Positions 807 to 23,048 of a DNA stretch of 23,048 nucleotides are shown here, in pieces (position 1 is the first letter of the stretch; every line of letters starts with the position of its first letter). This DNA comes from a virus: positions 1 through 23,048 of the IMG/VR virus record IMGVR_UViG_3300023180_000421; one strand, given 5' to 3'. Under the pieces are notes generated by a model. It was not told the origin of the DNA, made no database searches, and worked only from the letters and a program-made list of their open reading frames with translations. The translations under genes and the position numbers were made by a program.

Positions 807-2483
807 CTATGCGTTATAAAGGGTGCTTTGAATAGTGTGGTCATAATATCTATTTAACGCTCCAGTGTCAGGTATCATAGCAAACTTTGTTCCACCTCCA
901 CCAGACACTTGTTGTCCCCCTCCAGATGCAACAGGAACTATCAAAGTCTGTGCTACTTGTTCTTCATATGAAGCCTTTTTACTTACAGCAGTTGCTTGAT
1001 CAAGTGCATCAGGTCCTGCTGGTTGAGCAGGTTTTACTTGTGCTGGCATTCTGTAATACTTTCCTTCTCCACCATATTCAGCAGCATATGCTGCAGGAGA
1101 TGCTTCCCAACTAAACGCTGCTTTACTACTGGAGTTTGATATGATGTTTCCATTATCTAAAACAATACCAACATGTTTTTGTCCAGGAGCAATATACAAA
1201 TCTCCAGGTTGCTGATTGCCAGGTTCAATGTATTGATATCCATCCTTTATCATAGCATTCTCTGCATCTGGAACCCAGTTAGAACTACCCCATGGTGTTT
1301 TCAATCCTGCTTTTGCAAATACTTTATTGACTGCCCATACACAACCATTTCTTCCACCATCAGGAGCTGCTGCACTACTGAATCCTTTCATAGATTGTGC
1401 TGCAGCTGCTAATGTTTTAGATGCTTGTCCAGGTATTGCAGGTGTTTGAGGATTAAAGAATCCATCTTTTATTTGCTGCTCTATTATTGCTCGTGATCTT
1501 GCTCGTTGGGGCTCCAATGCTGCTATGGACTTATCAAAATCAAGTTTGAGTTCTTGAAGAGTTTGCTTATACATCTTAAGTGCTTCTGGGTCCCATTTGT
1601 CTGGAGTAAGATGACCAAAAGTGCCTTCTATTATTGCCTTTCTCTGGGCAGGTTTTAGTCCTGGTTGTTTCCAAACTGCATTTGGTCCTGTTATTTCATC
1701 ATATTTTGCAGTTGGAGCTGCAAATACTGCAATCAAACCCAAAGCAGCCAGAGCAACCAATCCAGGTGGAGACAACAATATACTGGCAAGCAATCCAGCA
1801 AGTTTGAAGAATAATGGCAAACCAATGGTTAGTAATCCACCCAAACTCAAGAGAGATGATGCTGCAATTGTCCCCACAATTGCCATTGTTCCTATAAACA
1901 TGGCAACAAAGTTGTCTTCTAAGAATTTGAAGATTTGTGCTGTCTTCTTTGGATCACTAAACCAATTTAACAACTGCATGATGGCAGTTGAGAAAACAAA
2001 TCCCTTTAAGAAATTCAAAGCACCATCAAAAATAGATGACTTAGGACCTGCAATCTTTGCTGAATTTTTTACTACATCTTTCTGTTCCTTTATCTCTGAC
2101 TGCTCTTCCTTGCTCTTCTTCTGAGCATCCTGTAAAGATTTTGCTTGAGCAACAGACTTTCTCTTCTCATTTGCCAATTCATTTTGCTTAATTTGAGTCA
2201 GAGTGTTAACATTCTGAGTTACAGAATCCAAAGTCTTTACCAATGCGCCATAAGATCCTTCTTCACCACCTTGTTTTGGAACAATACTGGCATTGATGGA
2301 TCTATAGTATGAGGTTTTTATAGTTGGAACTATTGCTGCCCTGGGTTTGACCACTATAGAGTTTGGTTTAGAAGTTTTAGTTTCTTCTGTTCCACCTCTT
2401 TTGGCTAGAGCACCTTTTTTATCTTTCTTGTCTTTCTTTTTAGATGCTATATTTTTTAGAGCACCTGTAAGTAACATCATCAT
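807..2483 (-). CDS. Tail protein with C-terminal CHAP/NlpC-like peptidase domain
   Basis: A 558-aa virion protein candidate. The N-terminal 150 residues are Lys/Ala-rich and probably coiled-coil. Residues 158-178 (FLKGFVFSTAIMQLLNWFSDP) match a segment of the next gene upstream. Residues about 195-255 hold hydrophobic segments. The C-terminal third looks like a papain-fold amidase/endopeptidase: Cys381 in NGCVWAVNKVF and His437 in KHVGIVLDNG, with GDLYIAPG between them, as in CHAP and NlpC/P60 domains. It probably cuts peptidoglycan crosslinks during DNA entry or acts as a tape-measure-like tail component. Three consecutive ATG codons make the exact start uncertain. It begins 6 bases after the preceding gene stops, so the two are probably co-transcribed. 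Confidence 0.6.
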   Translation of the reverse strand: MMMLLTGALKNIASKKKDKKDKKGALAKRGGTEETKTSKPNSIVVKPRAAIVPTIKTSYYRSINASIVPKQGGEEGSYGALVKTLDSVTQNVNTLTQIKQNELANEKRKSVAQAKSLQDAQKKSKEEQSEIKEQKDVVKNSAKIAGPKSSIFDGALNFLKGFVFSTAIMQLLNWFSDPKKTAQIFKFLEDNFVAMFIGTMAIVGTIAASSLLSLGGLLTIGLPLFFKLAGLLASILLSPPGLVALAALGLIAVFAAPTAKYDEITGPNAVWKQPGLKPAQRKAIIEGTFGHLTPDKWDPEALKMYKQTLQELKLDFDKSIAALEPQRARSRAIIEQQIKDGFFNPQTPAIPGQASKTLAAAAQSMKGFSSAAAPDGGRNGCVWAVNKVFAKAGLKTPWGSSNWVPDAENAMIKDGYQYIEPGNQQPGDLYIAPGQKHVGIVLDNGNIISNSSSKAAFSWEASPAAYAAEYGGEGKYYRMPAQVKPAQPAGPDALDQATAVSKKASYEEQVAQTLIVPVASGGGQQVSGGGGTKFAMIPDTGALNRYYDHTIQSTLYNA

Positions 2484-2489
2484 TTCTTA

Positions 2490-4289
2490 CTATGCCCCCA
2501 CAATATTGTATTGACCTTTGATTGCATACAAATATGGATTTGTTGGGTCAAAAGCACTGAAGTTTGCTACCTTCTTTTGGTTTGGAGTTGCTGTAGAAAC
2601 ATTTGTCCCATTAGTATTACCTCCCATAGGAAGTGCAGCAATACTTGGAGCAGGTGCAGCAGGTTTTGGTGGAGGTGGTGCAGAAGCTACAGTCTTTGTG
2701 GGGGAAACACTTGCTGGAGTTATTGAAGATGTAAATTGAGGTTTTGTTCCTTTCAAAGAGTTGATAGCATCCAATGCTTTTTGGTCAAATTGCAGTTTAT
2801 TTCTTGGATCAGCAAGCCATGGTTGAGCACCTCTTTCGCTTGCCAACTGGACTGCCAATCTGTCTTGATTAGCTGCACTGAATTTATCAGTCATCTTCAG
2901 ACCAGCTCTTTGTGCTAATCCTGGTAAAGTATCTCCAGTGAACTGATATGCTCCTGCAGCATGAATAAATCCTTCAGCATTTGTGAGATTCTTATCCTGT
3001 CTCCTTATGACTTCGCCAAGAGTCATGTCAGTAATTCTTTGACCAAGAATGGTTTTTGAGTCACCACTCTTTGGAGCAGCACCAGTTCTGTCTGCAACAG
3101 TTCCTTGATTCATAGCATCATATCCACCAGAACCTGCAGATTCATACTTCTTAATGTACCCCAAAGCAGTTGCTTGCATTGAAGTGAGCCCCACTGTTGG
3201 AGTTGCAGTTACTTTAGTAGGACCAGTCTCTGATAAAATAGACGGTTCTGATTTTGGTTCAGGATATTTAATTAAAGGTATCTGCATTTTATCTGTGATT
3301 GACTGTGTAGGAATCACAGGTACTTTAGGAATAGTCAGTGGACTACTACCCATCTTTTTAAGTAATGGATTTATAGCATTTTCAAGATTGACCAACTGAG
3401 CATTGGCACCTTCAATTACCTTATTGATTGGATCAAATATTCCCTTCAAAACACTTGCTATTCCAGCATTGACTTTCTCAATGACACCATTAACCCAATT
3501 GATCAGAGGTCTAAAGTATTCAATAGGATCCTCAAGGAATCTCAACAACTCCATTATGAGTGTAGAGAACAGGAACTTCTTCAAGAATCCACCAACAGTA
3601 TCAAAGATATTTGTTATAGGTTTCATGGCACTCTTCAAAGCACCTGGAACACCTGTCATTATTTTCTTTCTTTCTTTAGCAATCTCCTTTTCTTTCTGCT
3701 CTGCCCTTTGAGCAGCAACTCTTTCCTTTCTACTTTGCTTCTCCTCCTCTTTATCTTGTCTGATAGAAGTTTGTAAAAGTTTTCTTATTGCATTGTCAAG
3801 ATCAGATACCTTCTCAGCAACTTCAACATTAACAGGTGCTTCTGCTTCTTTTAAATCTTCCTGTGGTTTTGTAATTGCCCTTGGTGCTGCCTTTACAATA
3901 GCAGATGTTTTTGTTTTCTTTTTTCCAACAAAAGATTCTTTCTTTATCTTCTGCCCCTTGACCTTAAATCTACCAGTCTTACCTTTGACTCTCTTAAATT
4001 CATCAGTCAGTAATTGAACTTCTTCTGTAGGAATCTTACTATCTGGCATTCTACCAGCAGCCATTCTCTCCCTCAGAAGAGTTTTGTATGTATCATAGTC
4101 AATATCAAATACATCTTCCAGACCCAACAATCTAAGAATCTCTGGATCAATATCCTCATTCTCTACGCTATCACTTTCTTTCTTTTCTGCCTTTGGGACA
4201 ACAACAATCGCAGAGGATTTCTGAGACTTACCTTCGCCTCTAATGGAATTCAGTAAATCGTCCAAACCCTCTGGAATGTTATCCGCCAT
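2490..4289 (-). CDS. Tail protein with lambda-endolysin-like (GH104) domain; tape-measure candidate
   Basis: A 599-aa protein directly downstream of gp26/gp51, whose counterparts in other tailed phages are tail assembly chaperones that act on the tape measure encoded next. T4's tape measure gp29 is 590 aa. Residues 170-215 are highly charged and probably coiled-coil, and residues 235-256 (FLKKFLFSTLIMELL...) are shared with the next tail gene. Residues about 370-500 resemble the lambda R lytic transglycosylase: Glu383 in KKYESAGSGGYDA, then HAAGAYQFTGDT, then FSAANQDRLA and LASERGAQPW. This suggests a glycan-cleaving activity for local wall digestion at infection. The ATG at 4289 overlaps the gp51 end by 11 bases. 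The C-terminal tail is Pro/Ala/Ser-rich. The tape-measure role is inference. Confidence 0.6.
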   Translation of the reverse strand: MADNIPEGLDDLLNSIRGEGKSQKSSAIVVVPKAEKKESDSVENEDIDPEILRLLGLEDVFDIDYDTYKTLLRERMAAGRMPDSKIPTEEVQLLTDEFKRVKGKTGRFKVKGQKIKKESFVGKKKTKTSAIVKAAPRAITKPQEDLKEAEAPVNVEVAEKVSDLDNAIRKLLQTSIRQDKEEEKQSRKERVAAQRAEQKEKEIAKERKKIMTGVPGALKSAMKPITNIFDTVGGFLKKFLFSTLIMELLRFLEDPIEYFRPLINWVNGVIEKVNAGIASVLKGIFDPINKVIEGANAQLVNLENAINPLLKKMGSSPLTIPKVPVIPTQSITDKMQIPLIKYPEPKSEPSILSETGPTKVTATPTVGLTSMQATALGYIKKYESAGSGGYDAMNQGTVADRTGAAPKSGDSKTILGQRITDMTLGEVIRRQDKNLTNAEGFIHAAGAYQFTGDTLPGLAQRAGLKMTDKFSAANQDRLAVQLASERGAQPWLADPRNKLQFDQKALDAINSLKGTKPQFTSSITPASVSPTKTVASAPPPPKPAAPAPSIAALPMGGNTNGTNVSTATPNQKKVANFSAFDPTNPYLYAIKGQYNIVGA

Positions 4290-4461
4290 TTTGTGCTTGC
4301 TTGTACTTGAGTTCTTCTTCCTCTAAGTGTTGCTTCAAGAGTGTGACATAAACATCACGCTCCCAAGGCATCATATTTTCTATCTCAGTTAATGAATATT
4401 TATGGTACTGCATCAAGGCGAAGTTGAGTTTATAATAGTTCTCAAGGTCCATATGGGACAT
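4279..4461 (-). CDS. 51: gp51-like baseplate hub assembly protein / tail chaperone
   Basis: A 60-aa protein with the pattern LNFALMQYHKYSLTEIENMMPWERDVYVTLL, known from the gp51 position in T4-like cyanophages. T4 gp51 helps assemble the baseplate hub but is not in the finished tail. The protein is short, helical and acidic at its end. It starts two bases after the gp26 stop, in the -1 frame relative to gp26, and that frame is open upstream through the gp26 slippery site. It may therefore be made mostly as the C-terminal part of a gp26-gp51 fusion, as with lambda G-GT. The ATG at 4461 is the likely independent start. The name rests on position and recalled similarity. Confidence 0.6.
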   Translation of the reverse strand: MSHMDLENYYKLNFALMQYHKYSLTEIENMMPWERDVYVTLLKQHLEEEELKYKQAQNGG

Positions 4462-4463
4462 GC

Positions 4464-5183
4464 CTATGCGAAAAAACTGGATAAACCCTCCAAAACTACA
4501 GTGCTCTTCTTCTTAGTCTTTGGATTAGTTACCTTAACTTCATAAGATAATTTAGGCATTGTCTCAAAGAACTTTTCAATCTGCTTGAACTGCAGTGAGT
4601 TCATCTGCTCAAGGAATTCAATAACTTCTTGTTTAGTGACATCAGCAGTAGACCAAACTTCATCTTCACTATAGATTGTGTCTACACAAGATGCAATCAA
4701 TTCAAATGATTGATCCATACTGACATTATCACTAAAATCAAAGTTACTTGTAATGAATTGTTCAAGAGATGGATATCTCATTTCCATCATCAGATCATCA
4801 GAGAGTTTGATTCTCTTTGAGTGATCTTTGTGCTCAATGACATTGATCTCATCAATGGGAATAGTGATGGGAATTTCTGTCTCACCATCATCAGGTGCAA
4901 TAATATTGACCTCTACTTCCTCACCAACTGACTTACCTCTGATGTTCAGAAAGAGATATTCAATATCAAAAGTTGGAAGTGCTTCTACTTTGATTCCCTT
5001 GGTCTCAATACAGTTTTTCAGAACTGTCTTGATTGCTGTGGTGATTTGTTTTGTATCTTCACTTTCTAATGCAAGGACCAATAATTTTTCTTCTTTGACA
5101 AGGAATGGTCTATATTGAATGGTCTTTTTAGTTGATGGCAATTCCAACTCATATGTTGGCGTAGCAATTCTTGGTAAAGGCAT
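4464..5183 (-). CDS. 26: gp26 baseplate hub subunit (T4_baseplate family)
   Basis: A 239-aa protein, close to T4 gp26 (208 aa). The N-terminus, LPSTKKTIQYRPFLVKEEKLLVLALES, is the hallmark of this family. Its members act in hub assembly of T4-like phages and are thought to be tail assembly chaperones. The middle region (EVEVNIIAPDDG, IPITIPIDEINV) is beta-rich and the C-terminal part is helical. It lies 30 bases after the gp54-like gene and two bases before gp51. The last codons contain a TTTTTTC slippery site, so a share of translation may continue into gp51. Family membership is strong. The exact role in cyanophage tails is taken from T4. Confidence 0.8.
   Translation of the reverse strand: MPLPRIATPTYELELPSTKKTIQYRPFLVKEEKLLVLALESEDTKQITTAIKTVLKNCIETKGIKVEALPTFDIEYLFLNIRGKSVGEEVEVNIIAPDDGETEIPITIPIDEINVIEHKDHSKRIKLSDDLMMEMRYPSLEQFITSNFDFSDNVSMDQSFELIASCVDTIYSEDEVWSTADVTKQEVIEFLEQMNSLQFKQIEKFFETMPKLSYEVKVTNPKTKKKSTVVLEGLSSFFA
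4470..4476 (-). other. Candidate -1 programmed ribosomal frameshift site
   Basis: The heptamer TTTTTTC is read in the gp26 frame as T TTT TTC, the canonical X XXY YYZ form, two codons before the gp26 stop (GCA TAG). A -1 slip gives CGC ATA GGC ATG, which runs in frame into gp51. The product would be about 301 aa. A small GTCC/GGAC hairpin with a five-base loop begins about ten bases downstream. Use of the site is inference. Confidence 0.6.
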
Positions 5184-5213: not shown

Positions 5214-5999
5214 TTAGGGTGTTCTAAAGACTGTCCCTCTTGTTTCAGATGGAGGACCTGATGCTCTTATATTGAGCCCTCTTCTAATGTAAGTTTCTGT
5301 ACTGGAACCACCAGACTCACCACCACCTCCTGTAGGTTGAGGTGATGATGGTGCAGTATTATCAGAGGTAACAGGAAAGTTAATGCCTCCTCTACGAACT
5401 CTTTGCTTGACGTATCTGATATAAGAGAATGAAACATTACATCTCAGAACATCACTTTGATCATAAGATACAGGCATGGATGTGATTGATGTTGGGAATG
5501 CCTTGATGAAAGTATAGGCTAAGTTTTCTCCCCTTGCATCCTTTTCAAATTTTGTGATGTGAACATCACTTCTATATGTGTCTGGGTAATTGAATCTGAA
5601 GTTTGCTACTGAACTCTTATATACATCTTGCTGACCCTGCCCAGAAATAAAATCAATCCACCCATCAAAGAAATCAACAATCTTATAATCCCTGTCAACA
5701 TAAAATGTCATATTCAATGTGTCATCATAAGAACGACGATATGCCATTTTCTCTGTCACACCATGGTAATCATTATTTGCTTCATGAGTGAACAAACTTG
5801 TTCCAGGAAGAGATGTTTCTGAGCAAAGAAGTTCTAAATCCTCACCATCAAATCCATAATAGATACCTCTTAGCGCAAGAAATGCACTCACATCTGGGGG
5901 TGGCTGAACCTTTACCTGATATACAGATGTTTGGGCAAGATTTAAAATCCTACTCTTCAAGTCTGATGTTTTGACTCTATTAGGACGTGGAGCAGGCAT
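5214..5999 (-). CDS. Tail tube initiator-like protein (gp54-like)
   Basis: A 261-aa protein resembling the tail-tube/tube-initiator fold used in T4 by gp54 and gp19. Visible landmarks are ETSLPGTSLFTHEAN near residue 65, YRRSYDDTLNMTFYVDRDY near residue 90, FFDGWIDFISG, and FPTSITSMPVSYDQSDVLRCNVSFSYIRY near residue 175, which is typical of tube beta-strands. The C-terminal 60 residues are Gly/Ser/Pro-rich and probably disordered. gp54 would start tube polymerisation on the baseplate. In this window it is the first gene of the leftward tail cluster and is divergent from gp4. The ATG at 5999 is preceded by AT-rich sequence with no clear ribosome binding site. A gp19-type protein is the main alternative. 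Confidence 0.55.
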   Translation of the reverse strand: MPAPRPNRVKTSDLKSRILNLAQTSVYQVKVQPPPDVSAFLALRGIYYGFDGEDLELLCSETSLPGTSLFTHEANNDYHGVTEKMAYRRSYDDTLNMTFYVDRDYKIVDFFDGWIDFISGQGQQDVYKSSVANFRFNYPDTYRSDVHITKFEKDARGENLAYTFIKAFPTSITSMPVSYDQSDVLRCNVSFSYIRYVKQRVRRGGINFPVTSDNTAPSSPQPTGGGGESGGSSTETYIRRGLNIRASGPPSETRGTVFRTP

Positions 6000-19717: not shown

Positions 19718-20782
19718 TTAGAGAGCATTACCTCTTGGCAATACTTCTTCTGGGAACACAAAGTTCTCATGTGGTTGATCAACAGGTGCCATCCAAGCAC
19801 GTAGACCTTCATTTAGAAGAATGTTCTTGGTGTAAAAGGTTTCAAATTCTGGATCTTCTGCTGCTCGAATTTCTTGCGATACGAAATCATACGCTCGTAG
19901 ATTGAGAGCAAGACCGATAATACCAATACTAGAAGTCCAAAGCCCCATGACAGGAACGAATAGCATAAAGAAATGAAGCCAACGCTTGTTGCTAAAAGCA
20001 ATTCCAAAAATTTGAGACCAAAATCGATTGGCAGTAACCATAGAATAGGTCTCTTCTTCTTGAGTTGGTTCAAAGGCTTTAAAAGTGTTTGCTTGATCAC
20101 CGTCTTCAAACAGAGTATTCTCTACTGTAGCACCATGAATGGCACAAAGTAAAGCCCCTCCAAGAATTCCTGCAACTCCCATCATATGAAATGGATTAAG
20201 CGTCCAGTTGTGGAAGCCCTGTAAGAACAGAAGAAATCTAAAGATTGCCGCAACGCCAAACGATGGCGCAAAGAACCAACTGGACTGTCCAAGAGGGTAC
20301 ATGAGGAATACACTAACAAATACGGCAATAGGACCTGAAAAAGCAATCGCATTGTACGGTCTAATTCCTACGAGTCTGGCAATCTCAAATTGCCTGAGCA
20401 TGAATCCTATAAGGCTGAAAGCTCCGTGGAGCGCCACAAAAGTCCAGAGTCCCCCAAGTTGGCACCAGCGGATGAAATCTCCCTGAGCTTCAGGACCCCA
20501 AAGGAGTAGAAGGCTATGTCCGAGAGCATCAGCAGGAGTAGATACAGCAGCAGTAAGAAAGTTACACCCCTCCAGATATGAACTCGCAATGCCATGGGTG
20601 TACCAACTGGTAACGAAGGTGGTTCCTGTAAGCCACCCGCCAAGAGCGAGATAAGCAGTCGGGAATAAAAGTAAGCCAGACCAACCGACAAAAACAAACC
20701 TATCACGCTTAAGCCAGTCATCGAGAACATCGAACCACCCCCTTTGTTGAATTGGTTGTGAAAGTGTTGAAGATACCATCAT
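19718..20782 (-). CDS. psbD: Photosystem II D2 protein
   Basis: A 354-aa, full-length D2. Nearly all family landmarks are present: [53 protein letters not shown], the redox tyrosine in [11 protein letters not shown], the chlorophyll and quinone/iron histidines in [22 protein letters not shown] and LHFFMLF, and the C-terminus [17 protein letters not shown]. With D1 it forms the photosystem II reaction centre; phage copies replace host protein during infection. The ATG at 20782 directly abuts GGAGG, so the second ATG at 20779 is equally possible. It has its own promoter and terminator. Confidence 0.97.
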
Positions 20783-20957: not shown

Positions 20958-21713
20958 TCAATCACTCAAGTATTTATCAAGAGGTGCAAATGTATCAATT
21001 CTCTCTTGTGCAACTTTACAATATGTTTCACTCATATCTATACCAATATAATTTCTCTCCAGTTTGTGAGCAACAAAAGTAGTTGTACCTGCACCATTGA
21101 ATGGATCCAACACAACATCACCTCTGTAAGAAAATAGTTTCAAGCAACGCTCTACTAATTCTTCAGGAAACATTGCTGGATGTCCATAGTCTTTCATCTT
21201 GGTTTCTGGTGCTATAGACCAGTGACCATTGACATACTTGATGAACTCATCTTTAGTAATGTCAATGTTTTCTTTATTTCCAGGGTGTTTGAGAGTATCT
21301 TTACTAAAAACTTCAATAAATTCAAAAGGATAAGACAAGTATGGACATGATGGTGACTTCCAACTACCCCATGCTGTCAGTTTTTTAAGATTATTCTTCA
21401 ACCAAATAATCTCTCCTCTCCAGATCATACCTTCACTGATCATTCTTTGAGTGATCTTGTGATGAGTAGGAAAGTATTGTTTGTAGTTGGGTTGGATGTT
21501 GATGATGAGTCTGCCACCAGACTTTAGCACACGCTTACACTCAACAAAGACTGAAAGAATTTTCTCAAGGTATTCATCAGCATCACCTCCATCATCATGA
21601 GTATCATACTCCATGCCATAGTTATATGGAGGTGATGTCAAAACAATATCAACAGACTCATCGTCCATTTCTTTCAGTGCAACGAGAGAATCTGAACAGA
21701 TGATTTCATTCAT
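20958..21713 (-). CDS. DNA N4-cytosine methyltransferase of a type II R-M system
   Basis: A 251-aa methyltransferase of the beta-class order. The catalytic motif TSPPY (residues 26-30, VLTSPPYNYGMEYD) comes first and the AdoMet-binding motif DPFNGAGTT (203-211) last, followed by RNYIGIDMSETYC. TSPPY is typical of enzymes making N4-methylcytosine. The middle part (WLKNNLKKLTAWGSWKSPSCPYL) resembles CTAG-type methyltransferases as recalled. It would protect phage DNA from the endonuclease encoded directly upstream; the two genes overlap by ATGA. Target CTAG is inferred from the partner's family. Confidence 0.85.
   Translation of the reverse strand: MNEIICSDSLVALKEMDDESVDIVLTSPPYNYGMEYDTHDDGGDADEYLEKILSVFVECKRVLKSGGRLIINIQPNYKQYFPTHHKITQRMISEGMIWRGEIIWLKNNLKKLTAWGSWKSPSCPYLSYPFEFIEVFSKDTLKHPGNKENIDITKDEFIKYVNGHWSIAPETKMKDYGHPAMFPEELVERCLKLFSYRGDVVLDPFNGAGTTTFVAHKLERNYIGIDMSETYCKVAQERIDTFAPLDKYLSD

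Positions 21714-22311: not shown

Positions 22312-23048
<737 letters not shown>

Follow-up and report, generated by a model that had tools for sequence, protein, structure and literature searches.

Are gp26 and gp51, which lie side by side on the minus strand of a 23,048-nucleotide contig from an ocean cyanobacterial virus (IMG/VR record IMGVR_UViG_3300023180_000421, positions 1 to 23,048; hereafter the window), two genes or a single one? An earlier, sequence-only reading of this DNA had proposed that a -1 frameshift joins them in the manner of the lambda G and G-T tail assembly chaperones. Following up that proposal, we put at roughly 0.93 the probability that the two form one recoded gene, expressed through -1 ribosomal frameshifting. 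Frameshifting itself, its efficiency and the chaperone function of the products are what we infer from the signal, its phase, its conservation, homology and fold similarity. The argument turns on the following features:

4464-5183, minus strand: gp26, the predicted short tail assembly chaperone (TAC-N), 239 amino acids; matches PF12322 (T4_baseplate) with E 1e-73 and phrog_150 with E 3.6e-79
4279-4461, minus strand: gp51, an annotated open reading frame (ORF) of 60 amino acids, within the -1 extension 4279..4470
4279..4470, minus strand: -1 frame extension of 63 amino acids, the putative TAC-C domain of a 301-residue fusion; matches phrog_634 with E 1.1e-29 and the C-terminus of phrog_150
4486..4491, minus strand: Shine-Dalgarno (SD)-like GGAGGG, 9 nt upstream of the heptamer, with an anti-SD duplex energy of -9.8 kcal/mol
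4470..4476, minus strand: slippery heptamer T TTT TTC; T TTT TTY in 226/226 unique loci in which gp26 ends in Phe-Phe
4447..4459, minus strand: downstream stem-loop, a weak 4-bp GUCC/GGAC pairing here, stronger and covarying in many relatives

The slip site and the -1 extension

The 3' end of gp26 reads GAG GGT TTA TCC AGT TTT TTC GCA TAG, which places T TTT TTC (4476-4470) in the X XXY YYZ phase that allows a simultaneous -1 slip, with a single sense codon (GCA) between the heptamer and the gp26 stop. In the -1 frame the sequence continues as TTT TTT CGC ATA GGC ATG TCC... and is free of stops through the gp51 ATG as far as 4279, so that the predicted fusion comprises 238 + 3 (R-I-G) + 60 = 301 amino acids. 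The position and phase of the heptamer, the open -1 frame and a product of about 301 residues had all been given correctly by the sequence-only reading. Under the proposed mechanism, most ribosomes would terminate at the gp26 stop and release a 239-residue short chaperone (TAC-N, lambda gpG-like), and a minority would pause on T TTT TTC, held there by pairing of GGAGGG with 16S rRNA and, in many relatives, aided by the downstream stem-loop. Both tRNA-Phe would then slip back by one base (UUU-UUC to UUU-UUU), and the slipped ribosomes would continue in the -1 frame to make a 301-residue long form (TAC-NC, lambda gpGT-like). By analogy with lambda, the short form would coat the tape measure and the C-terminal domain of the long form would recruit tail-tube subunits.

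To follow the junction across related viruses, we combined 80 IMG/VR loci close to the window with 171 more from four additional IMG/VR scans and with 17 named phages besides T4. As each IMG/VR scan gives only the 80 best loci for a query, the sample is weighted towards close relatives. With the window included and two truncated loci dropped (L149 and L266, in which the locus contains no gp26 stop), the collection held 267 loci, of which 230 are unique at the junction; T4 (L086) was likewise left out before this set was made. Clustering of the heptamer-bearing loci gives 101 groups at 80% protein identity and 33 at 70%, and the hosts represented are Synechococcus, Prochlorococcus, Pelagibacter, Caulobacter, Pseudomonas, Desulfovibrio, Cronobacter and Variovorax. 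The sequence-only reading had suggested aligning junctions from many cyanophages, and in this alignment both the heptamer and the -1 phase are kept. The C-terminal Phe-Phe of gp26 is present in 226 of the 230 unique junctions, and every one of these carries T TTT TTC (220) or T TTT TTT (6).

The codons chosen at this site go beyond what the protein needs. Phe is written TTT 72% and TTC 28% of the time elsewhere in the gp26 genes, compared with TTT in 226/226 at the first slip codon and TTC in 220/226 (TTT in 6/226) at the second. The preceding codon ends in T in all 226 loci though it encodes S, D, A, N or G, and Ser codons elsewhere in gp26 end in T in 62% of cases. These codon-column counts of 226 were first taken on loci selected for the heptamer, and the heptamer count was repeated selecting on Phe-Phe only. 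The chance that all 33 lineages (<70% amino acid identity) would be slippery comes to 10^-11, a rough estimate from codon usage that ignores ancestry, and on these codon controls a chance heptamer was rejected.

The invariant run of 6-8 T could also be taken as a site of transcriptional slippage, in which RNA polymerase slips on the run and an altered number of U residues in part of the mRNA joins the frames. Such slippage occurs in bacteria and phages. A run of six T is short for it, however, and the run is usually a T6 closed by a conserved C (220/226). The SD-like element and the stem-loop moreover sit at the distances of ribosomal frameshifting (9-14 nt for an SD-like element, PMC5009743). 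With a short T6C run and stimulators at ribosome distances, we rejected transcriptional slippage, which is the least probable of the explanations considered here.

Four of the 230 junctions escaped the heptamer finder. One (L259) has a premature gp26 stop, with an intact heptamer further on. The distant Vibrio phages D509 and VAP7 (L096 and L097) carry a homologous-looking -1 extension behind other junctions, A CTT TTC and C GTT TTT, which resemble the GTTTTT motif reported for Vandenendeviridae. In the fourth (L245, IMG/VR 3300049043_000112, 1001-1891), gp26 and gp51 form one in-frame ORF of 297 amino acids, with a 2-nt deletion at the heptamer relative to the nearest relative, L242. Long ORFs are kept in two 20-kb stretches around this locus; since the loss of 2 nt from a T run could be an error in the sequence, we did not use it as proof of a fusion.

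The extension itself is open in 221/221 loci with enough sequence (of the 226), running for 59-70 codons from the slip, and conservation of the protein starts at the slip, for example as FFR-(I/V/L)-x-x-x-H-x-x-L-E-x-Y-Y-x-x-N-F. This bears on the rival view that gp51 is an independent 60-residue gene, with initiation at its ATG (4461) coupled to the termination of gp26, and with the heptamer and the SD-like element as by-products of Phe-Phe and Glu-Gly or as aids to re-initiation. An in-frame ATG is indeed present in the window and in most relatives (the first ATG falls at extension codon index 5 in 141/226 loci), and gp51 is annotated in most of the named cyanophages examined. In 34 of the 226 loci, however, the -1 frame offers no ATG, GTG or TTG between the heptamer and the -1 stop upstream of it, nor in the conserved extension until codon 16 is reached, and Desulfovibrio phage 7757 has no start codon in its whole extension. 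Annotated gp51 starts vary widely among records, and Synechococcus phage ACG-2014d (L091, 2212-2402) has no gp51 call despite an intact -1 extension. In P-SSM7 (L092), the annotated gp51 is a 3' fragment of the extension only. These patterns favour reading of the -1 extension by frameshifting over translation from a start of its own.

Elements flanking the heptamer

The sequence-only account mentioned neither an upstream SD-like element nor a downstream stem-loop, both of which emerged in the follow-up. The upstream element coincides with a Glu-Gly pair encoded four and three codons before the codon that ends in the first T of the heptamer, and it is selected at the level of codons. This Glu is GAG in 178/219 cases, compared with 30% elsewhere, and the Gly is GGG in 52/226, compared with 5% elsewhere. 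Where the Glu is GAA (41 cases), it is paired with GGG in 29, whereas the leading combination at Glu-Gly pairs elsewhere (49 sites) is GAA GGT (24). Over the 300 nt scanned, the mean anti-SD duplex energy is lowest 6-9 nt before the heptamer (-7.5, versus -0.15 with a standard deviation of 1.63); for -1 frameshifting, an SD-like sequence 9-14 nt upstream has been described (PMC5009743).

Could this element instead initiate gp51? SD sequences near gene ends may serve translational coupling (PMC5009743), a point in favour of an independent gp51. In the window, however, GGAGGG ends 24 nt before the gp51 ATG, and none of the 226 loci has a -1-frame start between the element and the heptamer, so the element is not placed to initiate gp51 at a normal spacing. 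The codons at the slip site are, furthermore, biased towards slippage beyond what Phe-Phe demands. With 34 of the 226 extensions lacking a usable start, we rejected the independent gene, which we regard as highly improbable, if marginally less so than transcriptional slippage.

The evidence for the downstream element comes from energy scans, synonymous permutation and pair counts, which were used because the stem did not stand out when all column pairs were ranked by covariance, one-sided G-U changes being dominant. According to the length available, 80 and 143 loci entered the fold-energy scan and 81 and 144 of the 226 the permutation. In 26-nt windows, mean folding energy reaches its minimum at position +7 past the heptamer, at -6.8 in window-like loci (against a mean of -1.6, n=80) and at -5.4 in the others (against -1.5, n=143). 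Permuting synonymous codons among sequences weakens the structure (z of -11, n=81, and -18, n=144; -7 and -13 on lineage representatives), and 23 control windows per set averaged between -1.0 and -1.9 and went no lower than -5.5; the permutation does not preserve ancestry, an effect that the control windows share. Among 81 window-like sequences, two-sided changes occur in 5/5 pairs and occupy 43 cells, versus 12.3 after shuffling (0/500 shuffles reach 43); in 71 other representatives (set A2, 71 of 72, L254 being out of range) the count is 47 versus 23.3. The stem-loop exceeds its 5% background in 57/100 representatives.

A different role for the two elements also deserves consideration: they might have been selected, for instance, to mask the gp51 ATG or to control gp51 translation, leaving the heptamer alone to drive low-level frameshifting as in lambda. 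The gp51 ATG does lie under the stem-loop in many loci, these measures show no strong SD (-2.1) and no strong hairpin (-3.6) in lambda G-T, and neither element rises above the 5% background in 25/100 lineage representatives. On the other side, the spacing, 9 nt for the upstream element and about 6-10 nt from the heptamer to the start of the stem, agrees with the known layout of bacterial -1 sites, and strong structures are still predicted at the stem position in loci that lack a usable gp51 start, such as L265 and L134. On balance we consider such another role unlikely, and that the dnaX-like stimulators act on frameshifting appears quite probable: the claim is well supported for the family and partly so for this window.

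Identity of the products and gene neighbourhood

What would the two products be? The profile phrog_150 (282 positions) spans both gp26 and the extension, with gp51 matching its C-terminal part (240-281), and coverage of both genes by one profile points to homologues that are encoded in a single frame. The additional match of gp51, phrog_634, is labelled 'baseplate hub assembly catalyst'. The T4 counterparts, genes 26 and 51, are carried on opposite strands, and both encode full PF12322 proteins that match phrog_150; T4 gp51 also carries the phrog_634 part. When aligned with the predicted fusions, T4 gp51 continues past the junction without a change of frame and T4 gp26 extends only a few residues beyond its Phe-Phe, so T4 encodes the short and long forms separately. 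T4 has two PF12322 copies, compared with one gp26 match in the window record (a 23-kb fragment), and Cronobacter phage LPCS28, annotated as Straboviridae, has one copy together with the heptamer.

An AlphaFold model of gp26 (pLDDT 85) was compared with the Protein Data Bank (PDB). The top three of 992 chains in VIA-align were RBSTP2171 (3fgx, Z 7.9), the HK97 tail assembly chaperone (2ob9, Z 7.9) and YqbN (3klu, Z 7.2), all matching gp26 residues 1-96 with a root-mean-square deviation of 4.1-4.3 over 84-86 residues; one of the two top-ranked matches is therefore a solved tail assembly chaperone. A sequence search of solved structures returned nothing meaningful, and an NCBIfam search nothing useful. 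Taken together, the conserved heptamer and phase, the 34 startless extensions among 226, the homology of T4 gp51, the predicted HK97-chaperone-like fold and the position before a tape-measure candidate support, as the best reading, gp26 as the short and gp26-gp51 as the long (G / GT-like) tail assembly chaperone. The sequence-only reading had cast gp26 and gp51 as G and GT equivalents; this stands for gp26 as the short form, and gp51 alone would correspond to the T-like domain, the GT equivalent being the fusion.

Several observations weigh against this reading. The stem of the window has only 4 bp, and neither its 76-nt nor its 35-nt fold convincingly beats shuffled sequences; RNAalifold found no consensus pair in the mixed set A2, in our opinion because the registers differ; and both elements stay within background in the quarter of lineage representatives noted above. 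No match of the gp26 model to the PDB fell under E 0.001 in Foldseek, and fold Z scores below 8 can reflect a common arrangement and do not prove kinship. Finally, the 236-kb record of L245 holds no second PF12322 copy, so that the short form would be missing there unless its in-frame ORF is a sequence error.

The genes on either side, also on the minus strand, are these:

2490-4289, minus strand: 599-residue tape-measure candidate with an endolysin-like region; weak matches to phrog_4200 (tape measure), E 8.4e-5, and phrog_90 (endolysin), E 1.5e-11
5214..5999, minus strand: tail-tube-like protein upstream of gp26; phrog_45, E 1.8e-39, and PF23849, E 1.9e-14

The ATG of the 599-residue ORF overlaps the gp51 stop, and its endolysin-like region is the phrog_90 match (359-492). 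The ORF that the sequence-only reading named as a tape-measure candidate does follow gp51, and its tape-measure match is weak beside the endolysin-like ones. The records of Pelagibacter phage HTVC008M and Caulobacter phage Cr30 have an annotated tape measure gene downstream, after one small ORF. The ORF that follows the candidate (807-2483, minus strand) has weak CHAP/NlpC_P60 matches, and the products of 2490-4289 and 807-2483 may be tail proteins with possible cell-wall-degrading domains.

Judging by its psbA- and psbD-like genes, the window, which makes up an entire IMG/VR record, is a cyanophage contig. These two photosystem II reaction-centre genes, at 19718-20782 and 22312-23046 on the minus strand, were read as psbD-like and psbA-like, respectively; they are 38% identical over 180 amino acids, both match phrog_182, and the second runs past the contig end. 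Between them lies a DNA-methyltransferase-like ORF (20958-21713).

Relation to known systems

The core finding is of a kind already described. Our literature search, which did not include the full text of Vladimirov et al. 2022, turned up neither the stimulatory elements nor any paper describing this signal in cyanophages. In their 2022 abstract, Vladimirov, Gautam and Davidson are said to have proposed that several T4-like groups use frameshifting and that T4 uses separate genes. The same study is cited for poly-T frameshift signals in T4-like TAC-N genes (PMC12846349) and for T4-like phages with separate short and long chaperone genes (PMC10885494). With chaperone genes assigned there, as these citations have it, the remark in the sequence-only reading that the mechanism is not established for T4-like phages is out of date.

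The locus resembles lambda G / G-T, whose chaperone function is described in PMC5009743, in having a short chaperone ORF, an X XXY YYZ heptamer near its 3' end and a -1 extension ORF directly upstream of the (here candidate) tape measure gene. It differs in the heptamer (G GGA AAG in lambda, T TTT TTC here), in belonging to the PF12322 sequence family and in the SD-like element and frequent stem-loop of the cyanophage family, which lambda lacks by the same measures. A -1 frameshift is also described for Vandenendeviridae and Andersonviridae, including phage Adele, where a poly-T motif ends TAC-N before the tape measure gene and the -1 frame is open in all genomes (PMC12846349); the motif there is GTTTTT, and section 3.8.3 of that account mentions no SD-like element or stem-loop. 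The arrangement of elements recalls E. coli dnaX, which combines an internal SD-like element 9-14 nt upstream, a heptamer and a downstream stem-loop (PMC5009743), with Lys slippery codons in place of Phe; in the phage locus, the shifted product would be the long form.

With the slip signal kept in hundreds of related viruses, the practical consequence concerns annotation. In many deposited cyanophage genomes the two genes go under the names 'baseplate hub subunit' and 'baseplate hub assembly catalyst', and gp51 is given inconsistent starts or is absent; for one recoded chaperone locus, the annotation should be a joined coding sequence. The stimulatory elements would also make the ratio of short to long form accessible to synonymous changes. 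We lean towards a broader view, in which T4-like cyanophages and several related lineages use a full dnaX-type cassette (SD-like element, invariant T TTT TTY and lineage-specific stem-loop), with each part selected at the nucleotide level within overlapping coding sequence, the short:long ratio set by three tunable elements and the cassette swapped for two genes in T4.

For T4 itself, the frameshift reading does not hold. The proteins are homologous: T4 gp26 is the counterpart of the short form and T4 gp51 that of the fused long form, and the gp51 annotated in cyanophages covers no more of T4 gp51 than its C-terminal part. T4 carries two separate genes on opposite strands, whereas here a single locus would supply both forms by predicted frameshifting, a contrast that provides a clear example of frameshifting having given way to two genes, or of the opposite change.

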